From positions 1 to 53,921 of the forward strand of contig JAFGSN010000206.1 in the NCBI GenBank assembly GCA_016934575.1: DNA of 53,921 nucleotides. Reading direction: 5' to 3'. The stretch comes from Vicinamibacteria bacterium. GTDB taxonomy: Bacteria > Acidobacteriota > Vicinamibacteria > Fen-336. Each line of letters starts with the position of its first letter. The first letter of the stretch is position 1. A program made the translations under genes and the position numbers. Below the pieces are notes generated by a model. That model was not told where the DNA came from. It made no database searches and saw only the letters and a program-made list of their open reading frames with translations. This document shows positions 41,524 to 53,895 of the stretch, piece after piece.

Positions 41524-42138
41524 ATGAGTCAGGCACGTGATGCCGAAACGACAAAACGCAAGATCATGGATGCAGCGGAGGATGTGTTCTTGGAGAAAGG
41601 CATGGGGCGTTCAGCTCTGAGTGAGATCTCCAGGAAGGCTGGCGTCACGAAAAGCTTGATCCATCATCATTTCGGCTCGAAGGAAGGCCTCTGGAGAGAA
41701 GTCAAAGTCAGGCGATTCAGCGCTTATGCGCAGCAGCAGATGGCCATGCTCGAGGACGCCTCCCCATCAGTGGATCTCCTTCGGGATTCGCTAGCGCTCT
41801 ATTTCCGTTTTCTGCGCGACAATCCGCAGATCATTCGCGTGCTTGCATGGATCTTTCTCGAGAAGGAACCCCACGACGACGCCTGCATGAATCTCGATCG
41901 ACAGTTGCTCAACGCCGGCGTGGCCAAGCTTCGACAGGGACAAGAAAACGGGCGCTTGAGAGACGACCTGGACCCACGAATTATCTTGTTTGTATTCATG
42001 GCGTTAGCGCAGCACTGGTTCCACGATCGTGATCACATGCGCGCTCATTTCACGGATCTTGGCGGGGATGTGGATGAGCTCTATCTCAAACAGGCGACCA
42101 GTATTTTTCTTCATGGAGTATCTAAAGAACGGACTTGA
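41524..42138 (+). CDS. TetR-family transcriptional repressor of the efflux operon
   Basis: A 204-residue TetR regulator. The helix-turn-helix (about 10-57) includes KIMDAAEDVFLEKGMGRSAL and SEISRKAGVTKSLIHHHFGSKEGL, and the C-terminal part is the variable ligand and dimerisation domain (FRFLRDNPQIIRVLAWIFLEKE). It lies next to an RND pump operon with matching palindromes before both transcripts, so it should repress itself and the pump until an inducer binds. Base composition is clearly less GC-rich than the pump gene downstream, a hint of separate origin. The start is at the ATG directly after the -10 box. Confidence 0.92.
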   Translation: MSQARDAETTKRKIMDAAEDVFLEKGMGRSALSEISRKAGVTKSLIHHHFGSKEGLWREVKVRRFSAYAQQQMAMLEDASPSVDLLRDSLALYFRFLRDNPQIIRVLAWIFLEKEPHDDACMNLDRQLLNAGVAKLRQGQENGRLRDDLDPRIILFVFMALAQHWFHDRDHMRAHFTDLGGDVDELYLKQATSIFLHGVSKERT

Positions 42139-42184
42139 GTGTTGTAACAATAGATGGAGTGAAACGTATCTATAGGTGAATATG

Positions 42185-42202
42185 TTGACCGGCCGGCCGA
42201 TT
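42185..42202. promoter_or_regulatory. TetR operator 2, before the efflux operon
   Basis: TTGACCGGCCGGCCGATT shares the TTGACY-GGCCGGCC core with operator 1; the outer bases are less symmetric. It sits 19 bases before ATG 42221. I could not find a -10 box at the proper distance from its TTGACC, so the pump promoter may lie just upstream (TATCTA near 42167), with this site over the transcription start. Confidence 0.55.
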
Positions 42203-42220
42203 TATAGGAAGGAGCCCATC

Positions 42221-43303
42221 ATGATTCAACGATTCTCTGGAAAGATTGTTCTTGGTTGCGCTGTTCTGGCCATGGCTCTGGTGATTGGAGTCTGGCCCGG
42301 CGAGAACACGCCCCGCTCGTCTCAACGAAAGAATCCTCGCGTTCGCGTGAGCAAGGTGGAGAAAACGAGCGCACAACGAATCGTGCGCTTTGCCGGCGTG
42401 ACCCGCGCCTCTCGACGCGCCATGCTCGCCTTTCTCGTGCCCGGGCGAGTCGTGTCGCGCGTCGTGAACGAAGGGGATCACGTCCGGGCAGGCCAGGCGC
42501 TCGGCCGCCTCGATGACTCGTCATTCGTTCATGCGGTTCAGGCGGCGGAAGCGGCGGAAAGCGAAGCCGCCGCTCGACTCGCGCAGGCGGACCGCGACCT
42601 CGCGCGCGTGGAGCGGCTTGCCGCGGCGCGCGCCGCGACACAGGAAGAGGTGGAGCACGTGAAAACGGGCGCCGACGCGGCGCGCGCGGCGCATGCGGCG
42701 GCGACGGCGCGACTTGCCGAAGCGCGGCGTGCGCTCGCCGATGCCGTGCTGCGCGCGCCTTTCGCCGGCACAATCACGGCCGTCGTTCGACAGCCCGGGG
42801 AATGGGTTGCGCCAGGCACGCCGTTCCTCGAGCTGTCCGGAGACGGCGACGTGGAAATCGGTGTCGAGGTGACCGAGGTCGTAGCGCCATGCCTGAAAGC
42901 CGGACAGCGCGTCGTCGCCGAGCTCCCGTTCGCTCGCGACATGCGCGTGGCCGGGCGCGTCGCCTCCGTGGCGCGCGCCGTGATCGGAGCCGGACGTCTC
43001 TTTCCCGTCATCGTGGCTCTTGATCCGACGCCCGGTATCACTGCCGGCATGACCATGGAGGTCCTCTTCGAAGTGAAGGCGGTCGCCGAGCTATCCGTGC
43101 CCATCGCGGCCGTCGTTAGTCCCGGATCGAGCCGGGCCAAGGTTTTCGTCGTGCGAGACGGCCGCGCACGCGAGGTCAGAGTCGAGCTGGGCGAGTTGAG
43201 AGGCGACCGTGTTCTCGTCCAGGGCGACCTCGCGCCGGACGAGCAGGTCGTCGTGGCGGGCCACACACGGCTCGCCGACGGCGACGGCGTGGAGATACTC
43301 TGA
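42221..43303 (+). CDS. RND efflux periplasmic adaptor (membrane fusion protein)
   Basis: A 360-residue adaptor. A membrane or signal segment (IVLGCAVLAMALVIGVW) is followed by the HlyD-type layout: a barrel-sandwich half near FLVPGRVVSRVVNEGDHVRAGQALGRLDD, an Ala-rich coiled-coil hairpin (about 105-175), the second lipoyl half near LRAPFAGTITAVVRQPGEWVAPGTP, then beta-barrel and membrane-proximal domains. The signal segment GCAVLA may be a lipoprotein site, but this is not firm. The start at ATG 42221 follows AAGGAG six bases away. It overlaps the pump gene by one base (TGATG), so they are made together. Confidence 0.93.
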   Translation: MIQRFSGKIVLGCAVLAMALVIGVWPGENTPRSSQRKNPRVRVSKVEKTSAQRIVRFAGVTRASRRAMLAFLVPGRVVSRVVNEGDHVRAGQALGRLDDSSFVHAVQAAEAAESEAAARLAQADRDLARVERLAAARAATQEEVEHVKTGADAARAAHAAATARLAEARRALADAVLRAPFAGTITAVVRQPGEWVAPGTPFLELSGDGDVEIGVEVTEVVAPCLKAGQRVVAELPFARDMRVAGRVASVARAVIGAGRLFPVIVALDPTPGITAGMTMEVLFEVKAVAELSVPIAAVVSPGSSRAKVFVVRDGRAREVRVELGELRGDRVLVQGDLAPDEQVVVAGHTRLADGDGVEIL

Positions 43304-46300
43304 TGAGCTTCATCGATTGGCTGCTTTCACAACGCCGCCTCACGCTCTCGCTCGTTCTGCTTCTGGCGTTCAGCGGCGGCGGCGCATGGTTCACGATGGT
43401 GCGACAGGAGGATCCGCGGCTGCCTGACTTCTGGGGCAACGTCGTCACCGCCTATCCGGCCGCCGACGCGGAGACGGTCGAGCGTCTCGTGCTCCAGCCC
43501 ATGGAAGACGCGCTGGCGGAGGTGTCCGAGATCCAGGAGACGAACGGCACGGCCTACGACGAGATGGCGGTGGTTTTCATCGAGCTGCGGGGCGGTCTTT
43601 CCGATTACTCCGAGGTCTGGGACAGAGTGCGCGAGGCGCTCGCCAAGGCGCGGCGTGAGTTTCCCGAGGGAGCGCTCGAACCGCAGTTGGACAAGGATCA
43701 ACAGGATCAGGACTCGGTCGTGCTGGCCGTGACCGGCTCGCCCGATCCCCTGGAGCTGCTCCGTGGCGCGCGACGCCTTAAGAAGGCGCTCCTGCGCGTT
43801 CCTCACGTCGCGCGCGTCAATTACATCGCCGATCCGGGAGAACAGGTGCGGATCGAGATCGACGACGCCGCCGCCCGTCGCCTTGGCGTCACGCCGTCAC
43901 ATCTTTCAGCCGTGCTCGCGGCGCGTAACCGCGTTCTGCCGGGCGGATCGCTCATGGTCGGAGGCAAGACCGTGCGTCTGCGGCCACTGTCCGAGTTCGG
44001 CTCGGTCGAGGAAATCTCGAAGACCGCGTTTGTCCTGCCGTCGGGGAACGCCTGTCCGCTGGGCGAGATAGCGACCGTTCGGCTCGGCCCGGCGGAGCCT
44101 GCGGCGCATCGTATGCGCTGGAACGGCGAGACGGCCGTCGGTCTGGCCGTCGTGCCGCGCCCGAACATCAATCTCGTCGATTTCGGCGTTTCCGTGCGCG
44201 ACGCGGTCGCGCGGCAGGCCGGAAGCCTGGCGCCCATGCAAGTCCAGGAAGTCACGTTCCAACCGCAGCGGGTCAGCGAGCGGCTCTCCCAGTTGGGACG
44301 CTCGCTCCTGCTCGGCATTCTCATCGTGGCCGGCGTGCTCTTTTTCTTCATGGGAGTCCGTCTCGGCTTGTTGGTGATCTTCGTGATTCCGCTCGTTGCC
44401 GCCGTTTCGCTGGCGGTCTTCTCGTGGGGCGGAGGCGTGCTGCACCAGATCTCCATCGCGGCGCTCGTCATCGCGTTGGGCATGCTCGTCGACAACGCCA
44501 TCGTCGTAGCGGAAGGCGTGCATTGGCATATCGAACGGGGCGTCGCGCCGCATCAGGCGAGCGTGGCGACGGTGCGCGAGCTAGCGGCGCCGCTGGCGGG
44601 CGCGACGGCGACGACGCTGGCGGCGTTCGTCCCCATGTTGCTCGCCGAAGGCCCCACGGCCGTATTCACGCGCTCGTTGCCGATCGTCATCATGTTGACC
44701 CTGAGCATCAGCTATCTCGTGGCGATGCTCGTCACGCCGATACTCGCGGAGATGATCTTGTCGCCGCACCGGACCGACAAGGGCGAAGCCGCGGCAAGCT
44801 GGGGACGTCGGCTCGCGCGTGTCGCCACTCGGCGGCCGCGACTCGTGTTGATTGCCGCGGCGCTGCTCATCCTGGGCTCGCTTTCGGCCTCGCGCTGGGT
44901 GCGGCGGCAGTTCTTTCCCTCGTCCGATCGCAATCAGTTCATCGTCGACGTGCGTCTGCCGGAAGGATCCCATCTCGACCGCACGGACGCCGCGGCGCTT
45001 GAAATCGAGAAGGCTCTTCTCGCACGCGACGACGTGATCGGAGTCGCCGGCTTCATGGGACGCGGCGCGCCGAAGTTCTACTACAACGTCGTTCCCGTGC
45101 CCTGGAGCCCGCATTACGCGCAGCTCATCATTGAAACGCGAAGGTCTGAAGACGTGGATCCGCTTCTGGCATGGATCCGCGCCATGGCCGAAGATCGTCT
45201 CGTGCACGCGGAGGTCGTGGCGCGCCGGCTGGAGCAAGGCCCGCCCGTTCCGGCGCCCGTCATGGTACGGCTCTTTGGGGAAAATCTGGCGTCTCTGAGC
45301 GCGGCGGCAAGAATGGTCGAATACGAGATACGAAGAATCCACGGCGCGGTGGACGTACGACACGACGTCGGTCCCGGTTCGCCGACGCTGCGTTTCGTCA
45401 TCGACGACGCGTCCGCGGCGCGTTTCGGCCTGACGCGCGCCGATGTGGCCCAGACCCTCTACGGCCGCACGCGCGGACTTTCCGTGGGAGAGCTGCGATC
45501 CGAAGAAGATCCCATCCCCGTTGTCGTGCGTTCAACGGAAGGCGAGCTGTTGCCGGCCGAAGCCCTGACCGCCCTGGACGTGGCCGCGCGCGACGGGCAC
45601 CTCGTTCCGCTGGGACAGATCGCGCGACTCGAAACGAGCTGGAGACCCGCCGCGATCCGCCATCGAGACGCACGGCGGGTCGTCACGGTCTCCTCGCAAC
45701 TCGAGCCGGGATTCACGTTCTCCGACGTTCTTCCTCGGCTTGAAAAACGTATGGCCAAGCTCGCATTGCCGGCGGGCGTGGCCTGGAGCTTCGGCGGCGA
45801 CGCCGAAGGCTCCGGTGAAGCCAACGCCGCCATCGTGACGGCATTGCCCATTGGCATGTTGTTGCTCTTCGGCGTTCTGCTTCTGGAGTTCAACTCGTTC
45901 CGGCGCGTCGGGATCGTTTTGACCACGGTTCCGCTGGCGGCGGCCGGGATCGTTCCCGGCTTGCTTGTGAGCCGCCAGCCCTTCGGCTTCATGTCGCTGC
46001 TGGGCGTCATCGCGCTCGTCGGCATCGTCGTCAACAACGCGATCGTGATGCTTGAGGTCGTGGAGTCGCGGCGTCGCGAGGGCGCTTCCGTTGAGTCCGC
46101 TCTCGAAGACGCCGTTGCGCGTCGCATCCGGCCCATCTTGCTCACGACCACGACCACGGTCGCGGGTCTCTTGCCTCTGGCCCTCTCGCCGTCCACGCTC
46201 TGGCCTCCCCTCGCGTGGGCCATCATCTCCGGCCTCACGGCTTCGACTTTGCTTACGCTCGTCATCGTGCCGGCGCTATATCGGCAACTGTTCGGCGGAA

Positions 46301-47631
46301 ATCGCGACGGCAAGCTGCCCGTGGTCGCGACGGCCTTGGCGCTGCTGGTCGGTCTGTTCGCGCCCGGCGTCGGCGCGGAAGAGTCTCTGCGCCTCTCGCT
46401 GGACGAGACGCTGCGCCGTGGCGCGCGCCGTCCGGCGGCACAGGCGGCTTCCGAGAACGCGAACGCCGCCCGCGCGGCGGCGACCGCCGAGCGGCGGGCG
46501 GCTTTTCTCCCTGTCGTCGGCGGCTCATACAGCGTCTCGGAACGGGATCGAGAGCTGTCGCTCGTCACGCCCATCGGTTCGTTCCCGTTTGGCAAGAGTC
46601 GTACTCAGACCTTGGGGGCCGAGATCGTTCAACCGCTCGTCGATCCGGCGCGAATCGTTGGCGCCGGAGCCGCGGCGCAAGAAACGCGCGCGGCTCGTCT
46701 CGTTTCCGAACGGACGAATCGGCACGCAAGCGCCGGAGCCGGCCGCCTGCATCTCGCGCTTCTCGCCACGGATGCGCGTCTCGATGCGACGCGGATCTAC
46801 GTCGAAAACCTCGCGGCACGTCAAAGGGAATTCCGCGACATGGTCGAGGCGGGACGCATGCTTGAAGCCGACGCGCTCAAGGTGGAGCTGGCTCTCGAGC
46901 AGGCGCGTCATGACCTCCTGGCGCTCGAAGAGAATCGGCGGGTGACGTTGATCGCGCTGGCGCACGCCGTCGATTCGGACGGGCGGATCGAAGCACTTCC
47001 TGTTCCCGACTTGACGGGGCATGAACCGCCCGACGTCGAGGCGAGCATCATGCGCGCGCGCGCGGCGCGCGACGACCTGGCCGCGCTCGAAGCGGCCGGC
47101 AAGGCCATCGACGGCCGACGCCACGCCGTTACAGCCGAAGCCTTGCCGCGGATCGACGCGCGGGCGAGCTGGACCTGGACGGACGGCGCGCCTTACGACG
47201 TCAAGAGCTGGGCGGAAGGCGCCCTGCAAATCACCTGGTCGCCCTTTGCCGCAGGCACGCGCGCGGCGCGATCCGCGGCGCTCGCGGCGCGAAAACGTGG
47301 GAACGAGGCGGAGATGCGTGAAGCCCGACGTCAAGTCGAGATCGAGGTGCGCTCCGCAATATCGTCGATCACGACGGCTCAGGCCGCGGTGCGTGTCGGC
47401 GAACGCGGCGTTGAGCAGGCGACGGAGACGCTGCGAGTCGAACGTGAAAGGCATCTCGCCGGACGCGCCACGACGAACGATCTGCTCGCGGCCGAGGCCA
47501 TGCTCCATGATCAACGCACGCGCCGATCCCTGGCGCGGCTCGCGGTCGTGCAAGCATGGATCGACTTGTGGCTCGCCGGCGGCGCGGAGCTGCCGCCTTT
47601 TCGCGAGGCATCCGGAGTGGAAAGCCGGTAG
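43303..47631 (+). CDS. RND efflux pump fused to a TolC-type outer-membrane channel
   Basis: A single 1442-residue chain. Residues 1-1000 are a full RND pump (AcrB/HAE type): 12 helices, two large periplasmic loops, GMLVDNAIVVAEGVHW in helix 4 with the proton-relay Asp, and GIVVNNAIVMLEVVE in helix 10. After a short link comes a signal-peptide-like segment (KLPVVATALALLVGLFAPGVGAE, 1004-1026) with a VGA-type cleavage site. Then follows a ~417-residue outer-membrane efflux protein with its two repeats of coiled-coil hairpins (SENANAARAAATAERRAAFL; MLEADALKVELALEQARHDL). There is no stop or frameshift between the parts. If cleaved after residue 1025 the channel could reach the outer membrane; otherwise it is a tethered fusion. 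Substrate is unknown. Confidence 0.92.
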   Translation: MSFIDWLLSQRRLTLSLVLLLAFSGGGAWFTMVRQEDPRLPDFWGNVVTAYPAADAETVERLVLQPMEDALAEVSEIQETNGTAYDEMAVVFIELRGGLSDYSEVWDRVREALAKARREFPEGALEPQLDKDQQDQDSVVLAVTGSPDPLELLRGARRLKKALLRVPHVARVNYIADPGEQVRIEIDDAAARRLGVTPSHLSAVLAARNRVLPGGSLMVGGKTVRLRPLSEFGSVEEISKTAFVLPSGNACPLGEIATVRLGPAEPAAHRMRWNGETAVGLAVVPRPNINLVDFGVSVRDAVARQAGSLAPMQVQEVTFQPQRVSERLSQLGRSLLLGILIVAGVLFFFMGVRLGLLVIFVIPLVAAVSLAVFSWGGGVLHQISIAALVIALGMLVDNAIVVAEGVHWHIERGVAPHQASVATVRELAAPLAGATATTLAAFVPMLLAEGPTAVFTRSLPIVIMLTLSISYLVAMLVTPILAEMILSPHRTDKGEAAASWGRRLARVATRRPRLVLIAAALLILGSLSASRWVRRQFFPSSDRNQFIVDVRLPEGSHLDRTDAAALEIEKALLARDDVIGVAGFMGRGAPKFYYNVVPVPWSPHYAQLIIETRRSEDVDPLLAWIRAMAEDRLVHAEVVARRLEQGPPVPAPVMVRLFGENLASLSAAARMVEYEIRRIHGAVDVRHDVGPGSPTLRFVIDDASAARFGLTRADVAQTLYGRTRGLSVGELRSEEDPIPVVVRSTEGELLPAEALTALDVAARDGHLVPLGQIARLETSWRPAAIRHRDARRVVTVSSQLEPGFTFSDVLPRLEKRMAKLALPAGVAWSFGGDAEGSGEANAAIVTALPIGMLLLFGVLLLEFNSFRRVGIVLTTVPLAAAGIVPGLLVSRQPFGFMSLLGVIALVGIVVNNAIVMLEVVESRRREGASVESALEDAVARRIRPILLTTTTTVAGLLPLALSPSTLWPPLAWAIISGLTASTLLTLVIVPALYRQLFGGNRDGKLPVVATALALLVGLFAPGVGAEESLRLSLDETLRRGARRPAAQAASENANAARAAATAERRAAFLPVVGGSYSVSERDRELSLVTPIGSFPFGKSRTQTLGAEIVQPLVDPARIVGAGAAAQETRAARLVSERTNRHASAGAGRLHLALLATDARLDATRIYVENLAARQREFRDMVEAGRMLEADALKVELALEQARHDLLALEENRRVTLIALAHAVDSDGRIEALPVPDLTGHEPPDVEASIMRARAARDDLAALEAAGKAIDGRRHAVTAEALPRIDARASWTWTDGAPYDVKSWAEGALQITWSPFAAGTRAARSAALAARKRGNEAEMREARRQVEIEVRSAISSITTAQAAVRVGERGVEQATETLRVERERHLAGRATTNDLLAAEAMLHDQRTRRSLARLAVVQAWIDLWLAGGAELPPFREASGVESR

Positions 47632-50529: not shown

Positions 50530-52635
50530 ATGCTGAAATCCATGCCGACGTTCGCCCTGTATGCGGCGACGCTTCTCATGGCGTCCGCCGCGTCGGCCGC
50601 CGCCAACGACCAGGAGGATCGATCCTTGAACTGGATGCAAACGTCGATCGCCGCGATAGAAACCGAGATCGGCGGCGCCCTGAACGAAGAGCAGCGGTCG
50701 CGGCTCGGCCGCGGTTTGCGTCAGGCGGGACGTTTCTGGCGCGAGACGGACGGCGACGGCGCCGTCTTCGAGGCGTTCGTGAAGCGTCATTTCATCGCGC
50801 AGGAAACAGAGCGCGACGTCCTCTTCACGCGTTTCGAAAGCCTTATCGAGGCGCTCAACGGCCACATGCACGAGATCAACCGCGTCTTCCGCGAGCAGGC
50901 CGATCTCGATCGGGGGCCGATCATGGCGGCGGATGAGATCTTCGCCGGCTATGATCCCGGCGCTCACGTGACCGACGACTTCTTCGAGAACAAGCTGGCC
51001 TTCGCCGTGCTGCTCAACTTTCCGCTGACCACGCTTTCGGAGCGACTGTCGCAGGGAACAAGCTGGTCGCGCCGGCAGTGGGCCGAGGCGCGTCTCGCGG
51101 CTCTCTTCGATAAGCGCGTTCCGGCCGACGTCAACCTGAGGCTGGCGGAGGCCGAGGCGCGCGCCGGGCGGTACATCGCCGAGTACAACATCTGGATGCA
51201 CCACGTTCTGGACGCCGGCGGCCGGCGTCTCTTTTCTCCCAAGACGAGGCTGCTTTCACACTGGAACCTGCGCGATCAGATCAAGGCCGAGTATGCCGAT
51301 CCCGCGGGCCTGCCGCGCCAGCGTCTGATTCAAGCGGTCATGGAACGGATCATCGATCAGACGATACCGAAAGCGGTCATCAACGATCCGCGCGTCGACT
51401 GGAATCCACGCACGAACGAAGTGCGTCTCTCCGCCGTCCAGGACTGGGAGGACGCGCGCGCCGCGGCGCCGGCGGCGGATTCCGCGCCCGAGCCGGACAC
51501 GCGATACGCGATGCTGCTCGAAACCTTTCACGCCGCTAGAATGCTCGATCCCCACTCACCCTTGGCGCCAACGCACATCGCTCGACGCTTCGATGAGGAT
51601 CGCGAGATCCCCGAGGAGCGCGTGCGCGCCATGTTCGAGCAAGTGCTCGCCTCGCCGCTCATGCCGCGCGTGGCCGGGCTGATCGAGAAGCGTCTCGGCC
51701 GGCCGCTCGAGCCTTTCGACATCTGGTATGACGGCTTTCGCCAGCGTTCGCGCCACTCCGAAGCCGATCTGGACGCGCTCGTGCAACGGCGCTATCCGAC
51801 GGCCGCGGAGTTTACGAACGGCATGCCGGGCATCCTTGAGCGCCTGGGATTCGCCTCCGAACGCGCGCGCGCGATCGCCGCTCGCATCGTCGTGGATCCG
51901 GCGCGCGGCTCGGGTCACGCCATGGGCGCGGCCATGCGCGGCGCGAAAGCGCACCTGCGCACGCGCGTCGGCCCGGACGGCATGAACTACAAGGGATTCA
52001 ACATCGCCCTGCATGAGATGGGGCACAACGTCGAGCAGACGATCTCGCTCGACGACATCGACCACACGTTGCTCCAGGGCGTGCCGAACACGGCCTTCAC
52101 CGAAGCCATCGCGTTCATCTTCCAGGATCGCGATCTTGAGATCCTGGGTCTCGGCTCGCCCGATGCGCATGCGCGGCATCTCAAGGCGCTCAACGACTAC
52201 TGGGCCACGTGCGAGATCGGCGCCGTGGCGCTCGTCGACATGGAGGTCTGGCGCTACATGTATGATCATCCGCAAGCGACGCCGGCCGCTCTCAAGCAGG
52301 CGACGATCGGAATCGCGCGCGACGTCTGGAACAGGCACTATGCTCCCGTCTTCGGCAAGCGCGACGTCACGCTCCTTGCCGTTTATTCCCATATGGTAGA
52401 GGCGTTCCTGTACTTGCCCGACTACCCCATCGGTCACATGATCGCGTCGCAGATCGAAAGGCAAGTGCGGCGCTCAGGCAGCGTCGGCGTCGCGGTCGAA
52501 CGCATGGCGCGCCTGGGGCGCATCAGCCCCGACCTCTGGATGACCCAGGCCACGGGAGCGCCGGTCGGACCTGAGACGCTGCTCGAAGAGGCGGAAGAAG
52601 CTCTCGCCGCCGTGACCACGAGCCCGGGAACGTAG
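50530..52635 (+). CDS. Secreted gluzincin-type metallopeptidase (M3/M32-like), unassigned family
   Basis: A 701-residue protein with a signal peptide ending near AASAAAN. The zinc motif HEMGHNVEQ is followed about 25 residues later by TEAIAFIFQD, giving the third ligand Glu, as in M3 and M32 oligopeptidases. The whole chain is helical, which fits those folds. Family members are usually cytoplasmic, so the export signal is uncommon. A possible substrate-channel segment is GMNYKGFNIALHEMGH. The start has GGAGAG six bases before ATG. It shows no operon partner; the promoter at 50452 suggests a single-gene unit. Confidence 0.72.
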   Translation: MLKSMPTFALYAATLLMASAASAAANDQEDRSLNWMQTSIAAIETEIGGALNEEQRSRLGRGLRQAGRFWRETDGDGAVFEAFVKRHFIAQETERDVLFTRFESLIEALNGHMHEINRVFREQADLDRGPIMAADEIFAGYDPGAHVTDDFFENKLAFAVLLNFPLTTLSERLSQGTSWSRRQWAEARLAALFDKRVPADVNLRLAEAEARAGRYIAEYNIWMHHVLDAGGRRLFSPKTRLLSHWNLRDQIKAEYADPAGLPRQRLIQAVMERIIDQTIPKAVINDPRVDWNPRTNEVRLSAVQDWEDARAAAPAADSAPEPDTRYAMLLETFHAARMLDPHSPLAPTHIARRFDEDREIPEERVRAMFEQVLASPLMPRVAGLIEKRLGRPLEPFDIWYDGFRQRSRHSEADLDALVQRRYPTAAEFTNGMPGILERLGFASERARAIAARIVVDPARGSGHAMGAAMRGAKAHLRTRVGPDGMNYKGFNIALHEMGHNVEQTISLDDIDHTLLQGVPNTAFTEAIAFIFQDRDLEILGLGSPDAHARHLKALNDYWATCEIGAVALVDMEVWRYMYDHPQATPAALKQATIGIARDVWNRHYAPVFGKRDVTLLAVYSHMVEAFLYLPDYPIGHMIASQIERQVRRSGSVGVAVERMARLGRISPDLWMTQATGAPVGPETLLEEAEEALAAVTTSPGT

Positions 52636-52770: not shown

Positions 52771-53895
52771 ATGAGAGACCCTGGTCGTGACGTTTCGGCC
52801 TTTCCCATCGGCGCCCGATCCTTTCCATCGTTGTCCATGGCGGCGCTCGGCCTCATGATCTCCGTATTCGTGTCCTGCCGGGCTCGCGGCGGCGGCGAGG
52901 AGCGCATGATGCCGCCGGCGCCCGCCGAAAGGAAGCCCATGAGCGAGTATGTACGGCCCACTGACGAGGAGTTGAAAAACCGCCTGACCCCGCTGCAGTA
53001 CCAGGTCGCGCGCCGCGACGAGACCGAGCGGCCGTTCGCGAACGAACACTGGAATAACAAACGACCCGGAATCTACGTCGACGTCGTCTCAGGTGAACCG
53101 CTCTTCTCGTCCCTTGACAAGTACGACTCCGGCACCGGCTGGCCGAGTTTCACCCGCCCGCTCGAGCCTTTGAACGTCACGACCCGCGAGGATCGACGCG
53201 GCGGCATGACTCGCACGGAGGCGCGCTCGCGACAAGCCGACTCACACCTCGGCCACGTCTTTCCCGACGGCCCCCGGCCGACGGGATTGCGTTACTGCAT
53301 CAATTCAGCGGCGTTGCGTTTCGTTCCGGCGGAACGGCTTGTGGCGGAAGGTTATGCAGAGTATGCGCGCCTTTTCGAGCAAGAACGCGTCGTGGCGGAA
53401 GACTCGGGCCGTCGCGAAACGGCCATCCTGGCCGGAGGCTGCTTCTGGGGCATGGAAGACATCATCCGAGGGCTGCCGGGCGTCGCCGACACCGAGGTGG
53501 GATACACTGGAGGATCCCTGGCGCACGCAACCTATAAAGACGTCAGGACCGGCACGACGGGCCATGCGGAAGCGGTACGCGTCGTCTTCGATCCCGGCCG
53601 CTTGAGTTATGAGGAGTTGCTGGGTTTTTTCTTCCGCATGCACGATCCCACGACGCAGAACAGGCAGGGCAACGATTCCGGAACTCAGTATCGTTCCGCG
53701 ATCTTCTATCTCTGCGAGGATCAGCGACGCCTGGCGGAAAAGGTCATGGCCGAGGTCGGCGCCTCGGGCAACTGGAAACGTCCCCTCGTCACGGAAATCG
53801 CGCCCGCCGGGGAGTTCTGGCCGGCTGAAGAGCACCACCAGGATTACCTCGTGAAGAATCCCGGCGGATACACCTGTCACTTCCTGAGAGACTGA
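52771..53895 (+). CDS. msrAB: MsrB-MsrA fusion, methionine sulfoxide reductase, probably exported
   Basis: A 374-residue bifunctional repair enzyme. The MsrB half comes first (about 60-190): [12 protein letters not shown], the [10 protein letters not shown] strand without the CxxC zinc pair, and the catalytic Cys in RYCINSAAL. The MsrA half (about 215-374) starts [14 protein letters not shown] with its nucleophile Cys, then [31 protein letters not shown] and EEHHQDYL. Together they reduce both diastereomers of Met sulfoxide. The N-terminus has a hydrophobic stretch ending ISVFVSC, a possible lipobox, so the enzyme may work in the envelope. The start at 52771 lacks a good ribosome site; ATG 52837 is the alternative. 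The gene ends 26 bases before the window edge. Confidence 0.93.

Follow-up and report, generated by a model that had tools for sequence, protein, structure and literature searches.

We report a gene whose product is probably a polyprotein, in which an RND pump continues through an internal signal peptide into its dedicated outer-membrane channel; signal peptidase I would cut there to give the two products at 1:1. The gene lies on contig JAFGSN010000206.1 of a Vicinamibacteria bacterium, of which we analysed a stretch of 53,921 nucleotides (the window). The families of its components are already known; no description of their arrangement was found in open-licence papers.

One frame for pump and channel

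The gene (43303-47631, plus strand) is a single frame from ATG to stop, 1442 aa long. The first-pass annotation had described a full RND protein running without a stop into a complete channel protein, and both domains are indeed found in this one frame by Pfam. The features of the locus are listed below (PAP, periplasmic adaptor protein; TM, transmembrane helix; OEP, the outer-membrane channel family).

41524-42138, plus strand: TetR-family regulator (PF00440 TetR_N, 5e-14), upstream of the pump operon
42176-43303, plus strand: PAP (TIGR01730 RND_mfp, 203 bits, cut-off 94.9)
43303-46296, plus strand: RND permease half, residues 1-998, MexK/TriC-like (PF00873; PDB sequence matches)
46282-46314, plus strand: predicted signal peptide n-region, residues 994-1004 (RQLFGGNRDGK, net positive), cytoplasmic, after TM12
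46315-46359, plus strand: predicted h-region, residues 1005-1019 (hydropathy; AF2 helix 1006-1019, pLDDT about 57-59)
46360-46377, plus strand: predicted c-region APGVGA, where signal peptidase I is predicted to cut behind A1025 (46377/46378) by the (-3,-1) rule
46378-47631, plus strand: TolC-type channel half, residues 1026-1442 and the stop codon (PF02321; AF2; Foldseek)

As in tripartite RND efflux systems, the adaptor is encoded with the pump: the PAP gene adjoins the fused gene, and the two overlap at TGATG, the stop codon of the first and the ATG of the second. Two further genes of the window were noted. One (52771-53895) encodes MsrB (SelR) and MsrA (PMSR) fused in 374 aa, a fusion of known type; the other (50530-52635) encodes a 701-aa protein that has a zinc-protease-like HEMGHN motif and matches no Pfam family at 0.001.

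The two halves of the protein

The RND half is a full-length domain: ACR_tran (PF00873) spans residues 5-994 and is matched over profile positions 3-1018 of 1021 (479 bits, cut-off 28). The closest solved structures by sequence are MexK (9xwg, E 9e-125) and TriC (6vej, E 8e-115), while all scores against the NCBIfam models of named pumps fall below their cut-offs (the best is NF033617, 404.7 against 1250); by these comparisons the RND half is a relative of named pumps and not itself a named pump. In comparison with the proton relay of the AcrB type, TM4 (GMLVDNAIVV) has one Asp and TM10 (GIVVNNAI) has Asn instead of Lys. The single TM4 Asp is common to the nearest unfused MexK-like relatives, and NN is found in those relatives whose TM10 motif was located. 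The gene resembles the MexJK and TriABC systems of Pseudomonas aeruginosa in its nearest RND relatives (MexK and TriC) and in the adjacent adaptor gene; in those pumps, however, the channel (OprM or OpmH) comes from a gene of its own, whereas here it continues the permease chain at its C-terminus.

The channel half is matched by OEP (PF02321) in two stretches (103.9 bits, cut-off 22) and by TIGR01844 (TolC family) over residues 1047-1427, the latter with 67.6 bits and thus under the strict cut-off of 225. No match to solved outer-membrane factors (OMFs) was found by sequence at E <= 0.01. The AF2 model, which covers residues 850-1442 at a mean pLDDT of 87.9, has four barrel strands per protomer (1071-1081, 1099-1113, 1283-1295 and 1301-1311) and two long helix pairs, with long periplasmic helices at 1115-1182 and 1314-1385. 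The top Foldseek match of the channel model is E. coli TolC (9tg4, TMt 0.82, E 2e-18), and CusC (TMt 0.76) and OprM (TMt 0.71) match its fold as well. As modelled, the channel half is complete and of the TolC-type fold. It shares this fold and the Pfam OEP family with TolC, OprM and CusC, but differs from them in being the C-terminal part of a permease chain, with a signal peptide that is internal rather than N-terminal.

The frame is intact at the junction

The source genome is a 4.0-Mb draft of 247 contigs (98% complete, 4.4% contamination). Its fragmentation and contamination, together with the separate genes of the nearest unfused relatives, are what would favour an artefact, in which two real genes of a metagenome-assembled genome were merged by a mistake of sequencing or assembly. 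The DNA around the junction makes this very improbable. From 46093 to 46862 all three forward frames are free of stops (frame 1 has its nearest ones at 46046 and 46943, frame 2 at 46092 and 46863), which leaves every frame without a stop within about 200 nt of the junction. ATG is likewise missing within about 270 nt: frame 0 has its nearest ATGs at 46048 and 46840, and neither of the remaining forward frames has one between 45900 and 46700. Correcting one sequencing error could thus not bring back two ordinary genes, which would require a stop and a start signal and not one base change. A missed stop at the junction is thus unlikely, and we rejected a missed stop or single indel as the source of the fusion. 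GC3 is continuous across the linker (0.80 in the RND part, 0.86 in the linker and 0.76 in the OEP part), and the same architecture recurs in many independent assemblies, including the single-contig genome G379.

The channel might also be made alone from an internal start, for which an in-frame GTG (46321) and an in-frame TTG (46336) are present at the junction. No Shine-Dalgarno-like word, however, was found in 46201-46420, and a signal peptide begun at GTG 46321 would lack any positively charged residue, since R1001 and K1004 precede that codon. We consider this reading very improbable, and internal translation initiation was rejected since no ribosome-binding word was found.

The junction resembles a signal peptide

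The junction reads RQLFGGNRDGK-LPVVATALALLVGLF-APGVGA/EESLRLSLDE (here and below a slash within a sequence marks the predicted cut), and the signal-peptide-like segment with a VGA site that had been noticed on first inspection is where it was said to be. It has the features of a signal peptidase I substrate: basic residues (R994, R1001 and K1004), an h-region (1005-1019), V1023 at -3 and A1025 at -1. The hydrophobic core, L1005-F1019, has 15 residues and is followed by the helix breakers P and G of the c-region APGVGA; its AF2 helix has 14 residues (at low confidence), as compared with 25-31 for complete RND helices in the same model. Three signal peptidase I genes (PF10502) are present in the source genome. 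RND pumps have 12 helices and both termini in the cytoplasm, and TM12 of the RND half is formed by residues 969-993; as the C-terminus of the RND half is cytoplasmic, an extra hydrophobic segment is needed to bring the channel half to the periplasm.

We compared 44 distinct fused proteins of the tree set, the window protein included. Sites were scored with simple weights for positions -3, -1 and +1 that were made for this analysis, as was a search for a 12-residue core, and neither is a trained predictor. Position -3 of the best-scoring sites is A in 37 proteins, L in 5 and V in 2, and position -1 is A in 40 and G in 4, so that all 44 junctions satisfy the (-3,-1) rule of signal peptidase I. 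This scheme itself rewards such residues, and a fairer control is the pattern A.A[QEDASGT], which occurs in 33 of the 44 junctions, in 2.3% of 515 RND transmembrane ends and in 37% of shuffled junctions. The contrast in these sequences is strong with transmembrane ends and moderate with shuffles, the latter because the junction region is alanine-rich and part of the A-x-A signal is composition. Stand-alone OEPs of the same class have N-terminal signal peptides of like form (e.g. AxA/Q). Our best reading is that the junction acts as an internal signal peptide maintained by selection, and of the two outcomes first proposed for the protein, processing into two separate proteins or an uncut bridge, the shared site in 44 of 44 junctions favours processing.

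The window site, VGA/E, is weaker than the AxA/Q of most homologues. This could be taken to mean that another protease makes the cut, or that only some of the chains are cut, the processed and the unprocessed form being present together in a regulatory role; such a scheme is very unlikely, as the sites obey the signal peptidase I rule and stand-alone OEPs carry sites of the same kind.

Gln right after the predicted cut is very common in this Acidobacteriota-like class: it stands at +1 in 28 of the 44 junctions and is also seen in stand-alone OEPs. Gln after the cut has been reported as the 'Q-rule' of Bacteroidetes (PMC5837995).

Fusions in related genomes

A search for the same fusion in relatives, as the first-pass annotation had proposed, covered 193 genomes of the same class and a phylum-wide draw of 297 genomes, with 55 regions fetched. 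RND::OEP fusions are present in at least 31 of the 193 same-class genomes (a lower bound, from listed rows and fetched loci), usually in the order PAP-[RND::OEP]; such fusions are not rare. Other classes of the phylum have more of them, and a Sediminibacterium (Bacteroidota) MAG has one (locus L216), which is the one fusion that represents the Bacteroidota in our data. Proteins of about 1450 aa of the fused type, named CzcA, are common in Bacteroidota databases. The adaptor gene is directly upstream in nearly all fused loci and directly downstream in L216. These other fusions of the phylum and of the Bacteroidota (HAE-1/CzcA-like, about 1450-1500 aa) are like that of the window in having one chain, a junction that resembles a signal peptide and a PAP gene next to it; they differ in that their origins appear separate on the RND tree and most have AxA/Q and longer linkers (in homologues the distance between site and OEP reaches 47 residues). 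A plasmid tblastn search for window-like fusions gave no record covering 80% of the query. When genome contigs were searched with the fused protein, nearly all named records matched the RND half alone, and several Clostridia matches had long frames.

In one locus (L152 1229-5974, minus strand, genome G127) a fused RND::OEP gene is broken within the OEP part, with the remainder in a separate frame; this looks like a frameshift that came either from error or from decay.

Two genes at this place in relatives had been named as a finding that would speak against the fusion. This applies only by half: in the nearest unfused relatives of the window RND (L171 and L174-L177) the genes are indeed separate, but they stand in the order OEP-PAP-RND, and the same PAP-[RND::OEP] fusion is found in other, separate lineages. 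Separate genes in the order OEP-PAP-RND are also found in a second unfused MexK-like clade (L168-L170, L172 and L173).

In unfused MexK-like operons of the class, an additional N-terminal domain of some 300-400 aa separates the OEP part of the channel protein from its signal peptide, which is another, different unusual channel fusion. The following genes encode an OEP with this extra domain.

L171 6979-9498, minus strand: ABC_sub_bind match weaker than that of L174
L174 503-2956, plus strand: ABC_sub_bind (PF04392) match above the cut-off
L175 2374-5022, plus strand: OEP with the extra N-terminal domain
L176 3020-5440, plus strand: OEP with the extra N-terminal domain
L177 3474-6335, plus strand: OEP with the extra N-terminal domain

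The RND permeases of one sister MexK-like clade (L165, L167-L170, L172 and L173) are enlarged by about 150 extra residues inside the domain, so that the RND match extends over about 1160 aa, for example:

L168 5196-8780, plus strand: enlarged RND permease

Origins of the fusion

On a tree of 90 RND rows the fused label requires six changes, all six forced by starred branches, although change counts alone do not tell gains from losses. In a tree of the MexK-like subset (29 rows, LG+C20) the window groups with unfused pumps (95/92), apart from another fused clade (L138, L223, L224 and L226-L228; 100/100), and 0% of 200 bootstrap trees unite the fused rows of this subset. A single shared ancestral fusion is unsupported, given the six changes and the bootstrap result. 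RND::OEP fusions thus seem to have arisen several times, and the fusion in the window was likely an independent event; the window is on a long branch, which makes its exact position in the tree less sure.

A bridge across the periplasm is improbable

If the chain stayed uncut, residues 1005-1025 would be a 13th transmembrane helix and the protein a covalent bridge from the inner to the outer membrane, as the first-pass annotation had offered for the unprocessed case. In favour of this, the stretch is indeed hydrophobic, the OEP part would come to lie on the correct side of such a 13th segment, and the linkers of some homologues are longer, reaching the 47 residues given above. The geometry speaks against a bridge. 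Reconstituted MexAB-OprM keeps the membranes at a distance of 23 nm, of which the RND protein takes 7 nm and the OMF 10 nm, with a gap of about 6 nm (PMC4754349), and the helical barrel of OMFs reaches 100 Å into the periplasm, with the equatorial domain partway (PMC4790312). In the AF2 model the first channel strand (1029-1031) begins about 4 residues past the predicted site, and its sole matching short strand is 1229-1231, in the equatorial region (the pairing is judged from secondary structure). Four residues span less than 2 nm where about 18 nm are needed, which makes an uncut bridge implausible for the window protein. Nor would a mere anchor give any reason for the small-x-small site kept in every junction. 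We consider the bridge improbable and rejected it on membrane spacing and linker length.

Proposed processing and assembly

We infer cleavage, trimerisation and assembly of the channel, and efflux of drugs or solutes from the sequence. In the proposed processing by signal peptidase I, Sec would insert the 12 RND helices, leaving the C-terminus inside, and the junction, a signal sequence of N-in orientation, would then initiate export of the channel half. Signal peptidase I would cut after VGA, between A1025 and E1026, and the channel half would cross the periplasm and trimerise in the outer membrane. The PAP, encoded directly upstream, would connect the RND and channel trimers into a classical tripartite efflux pump. 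The 1:1 ratio of the products, recognized at the outset, holds for this scheme; the clash then seen with the trimeric state of both proteins does not, since pump and channel made at 1:1 suit two trimers (3:3).

It is also possible, though rather unlikely, that RND::OMF polyproteins are a recurrent device, evolved several times, by which the pump chain inserts and exports its own channel. The uncut precursor, tethered at the RND trimer, would gather three channel chains, and their release by signal peptidase I would be a step of assembly as well as a means of fixing the 1:1 ratio.

The proposed processing has a parallel in FbcH (cytochrome b/c1 of Bradyrhizobium japonicum), a polyprotein that signal peptidase cleaves at an internal signal peptide to give two membrane subunits. 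Both proteins are one chain with an internal signal peptide, but FbcH belongs to a respiratory complex with both products at the inner membrane, whereas one product of the window gene would go to the outer membrane.

Implications

No description of a natural RND-OMF fusion was found in searches of the open-licence part of PMC, and we know of no bacterial polyprotein described as being cut into inner- and outer-membrane subunits. For annotation, entries of about 1450 aa named 'RND transporter' may hide an outer-membrane channel, and operons apparently without a channel gene may in fact have one. If the cleavage is real, these bacteria would provide a natural system with a fixed pump:channel stoichiometry, and internal processing of a multi-pass membrane protein by signal peptidase I would be a routine device of gene expression, reached several times.
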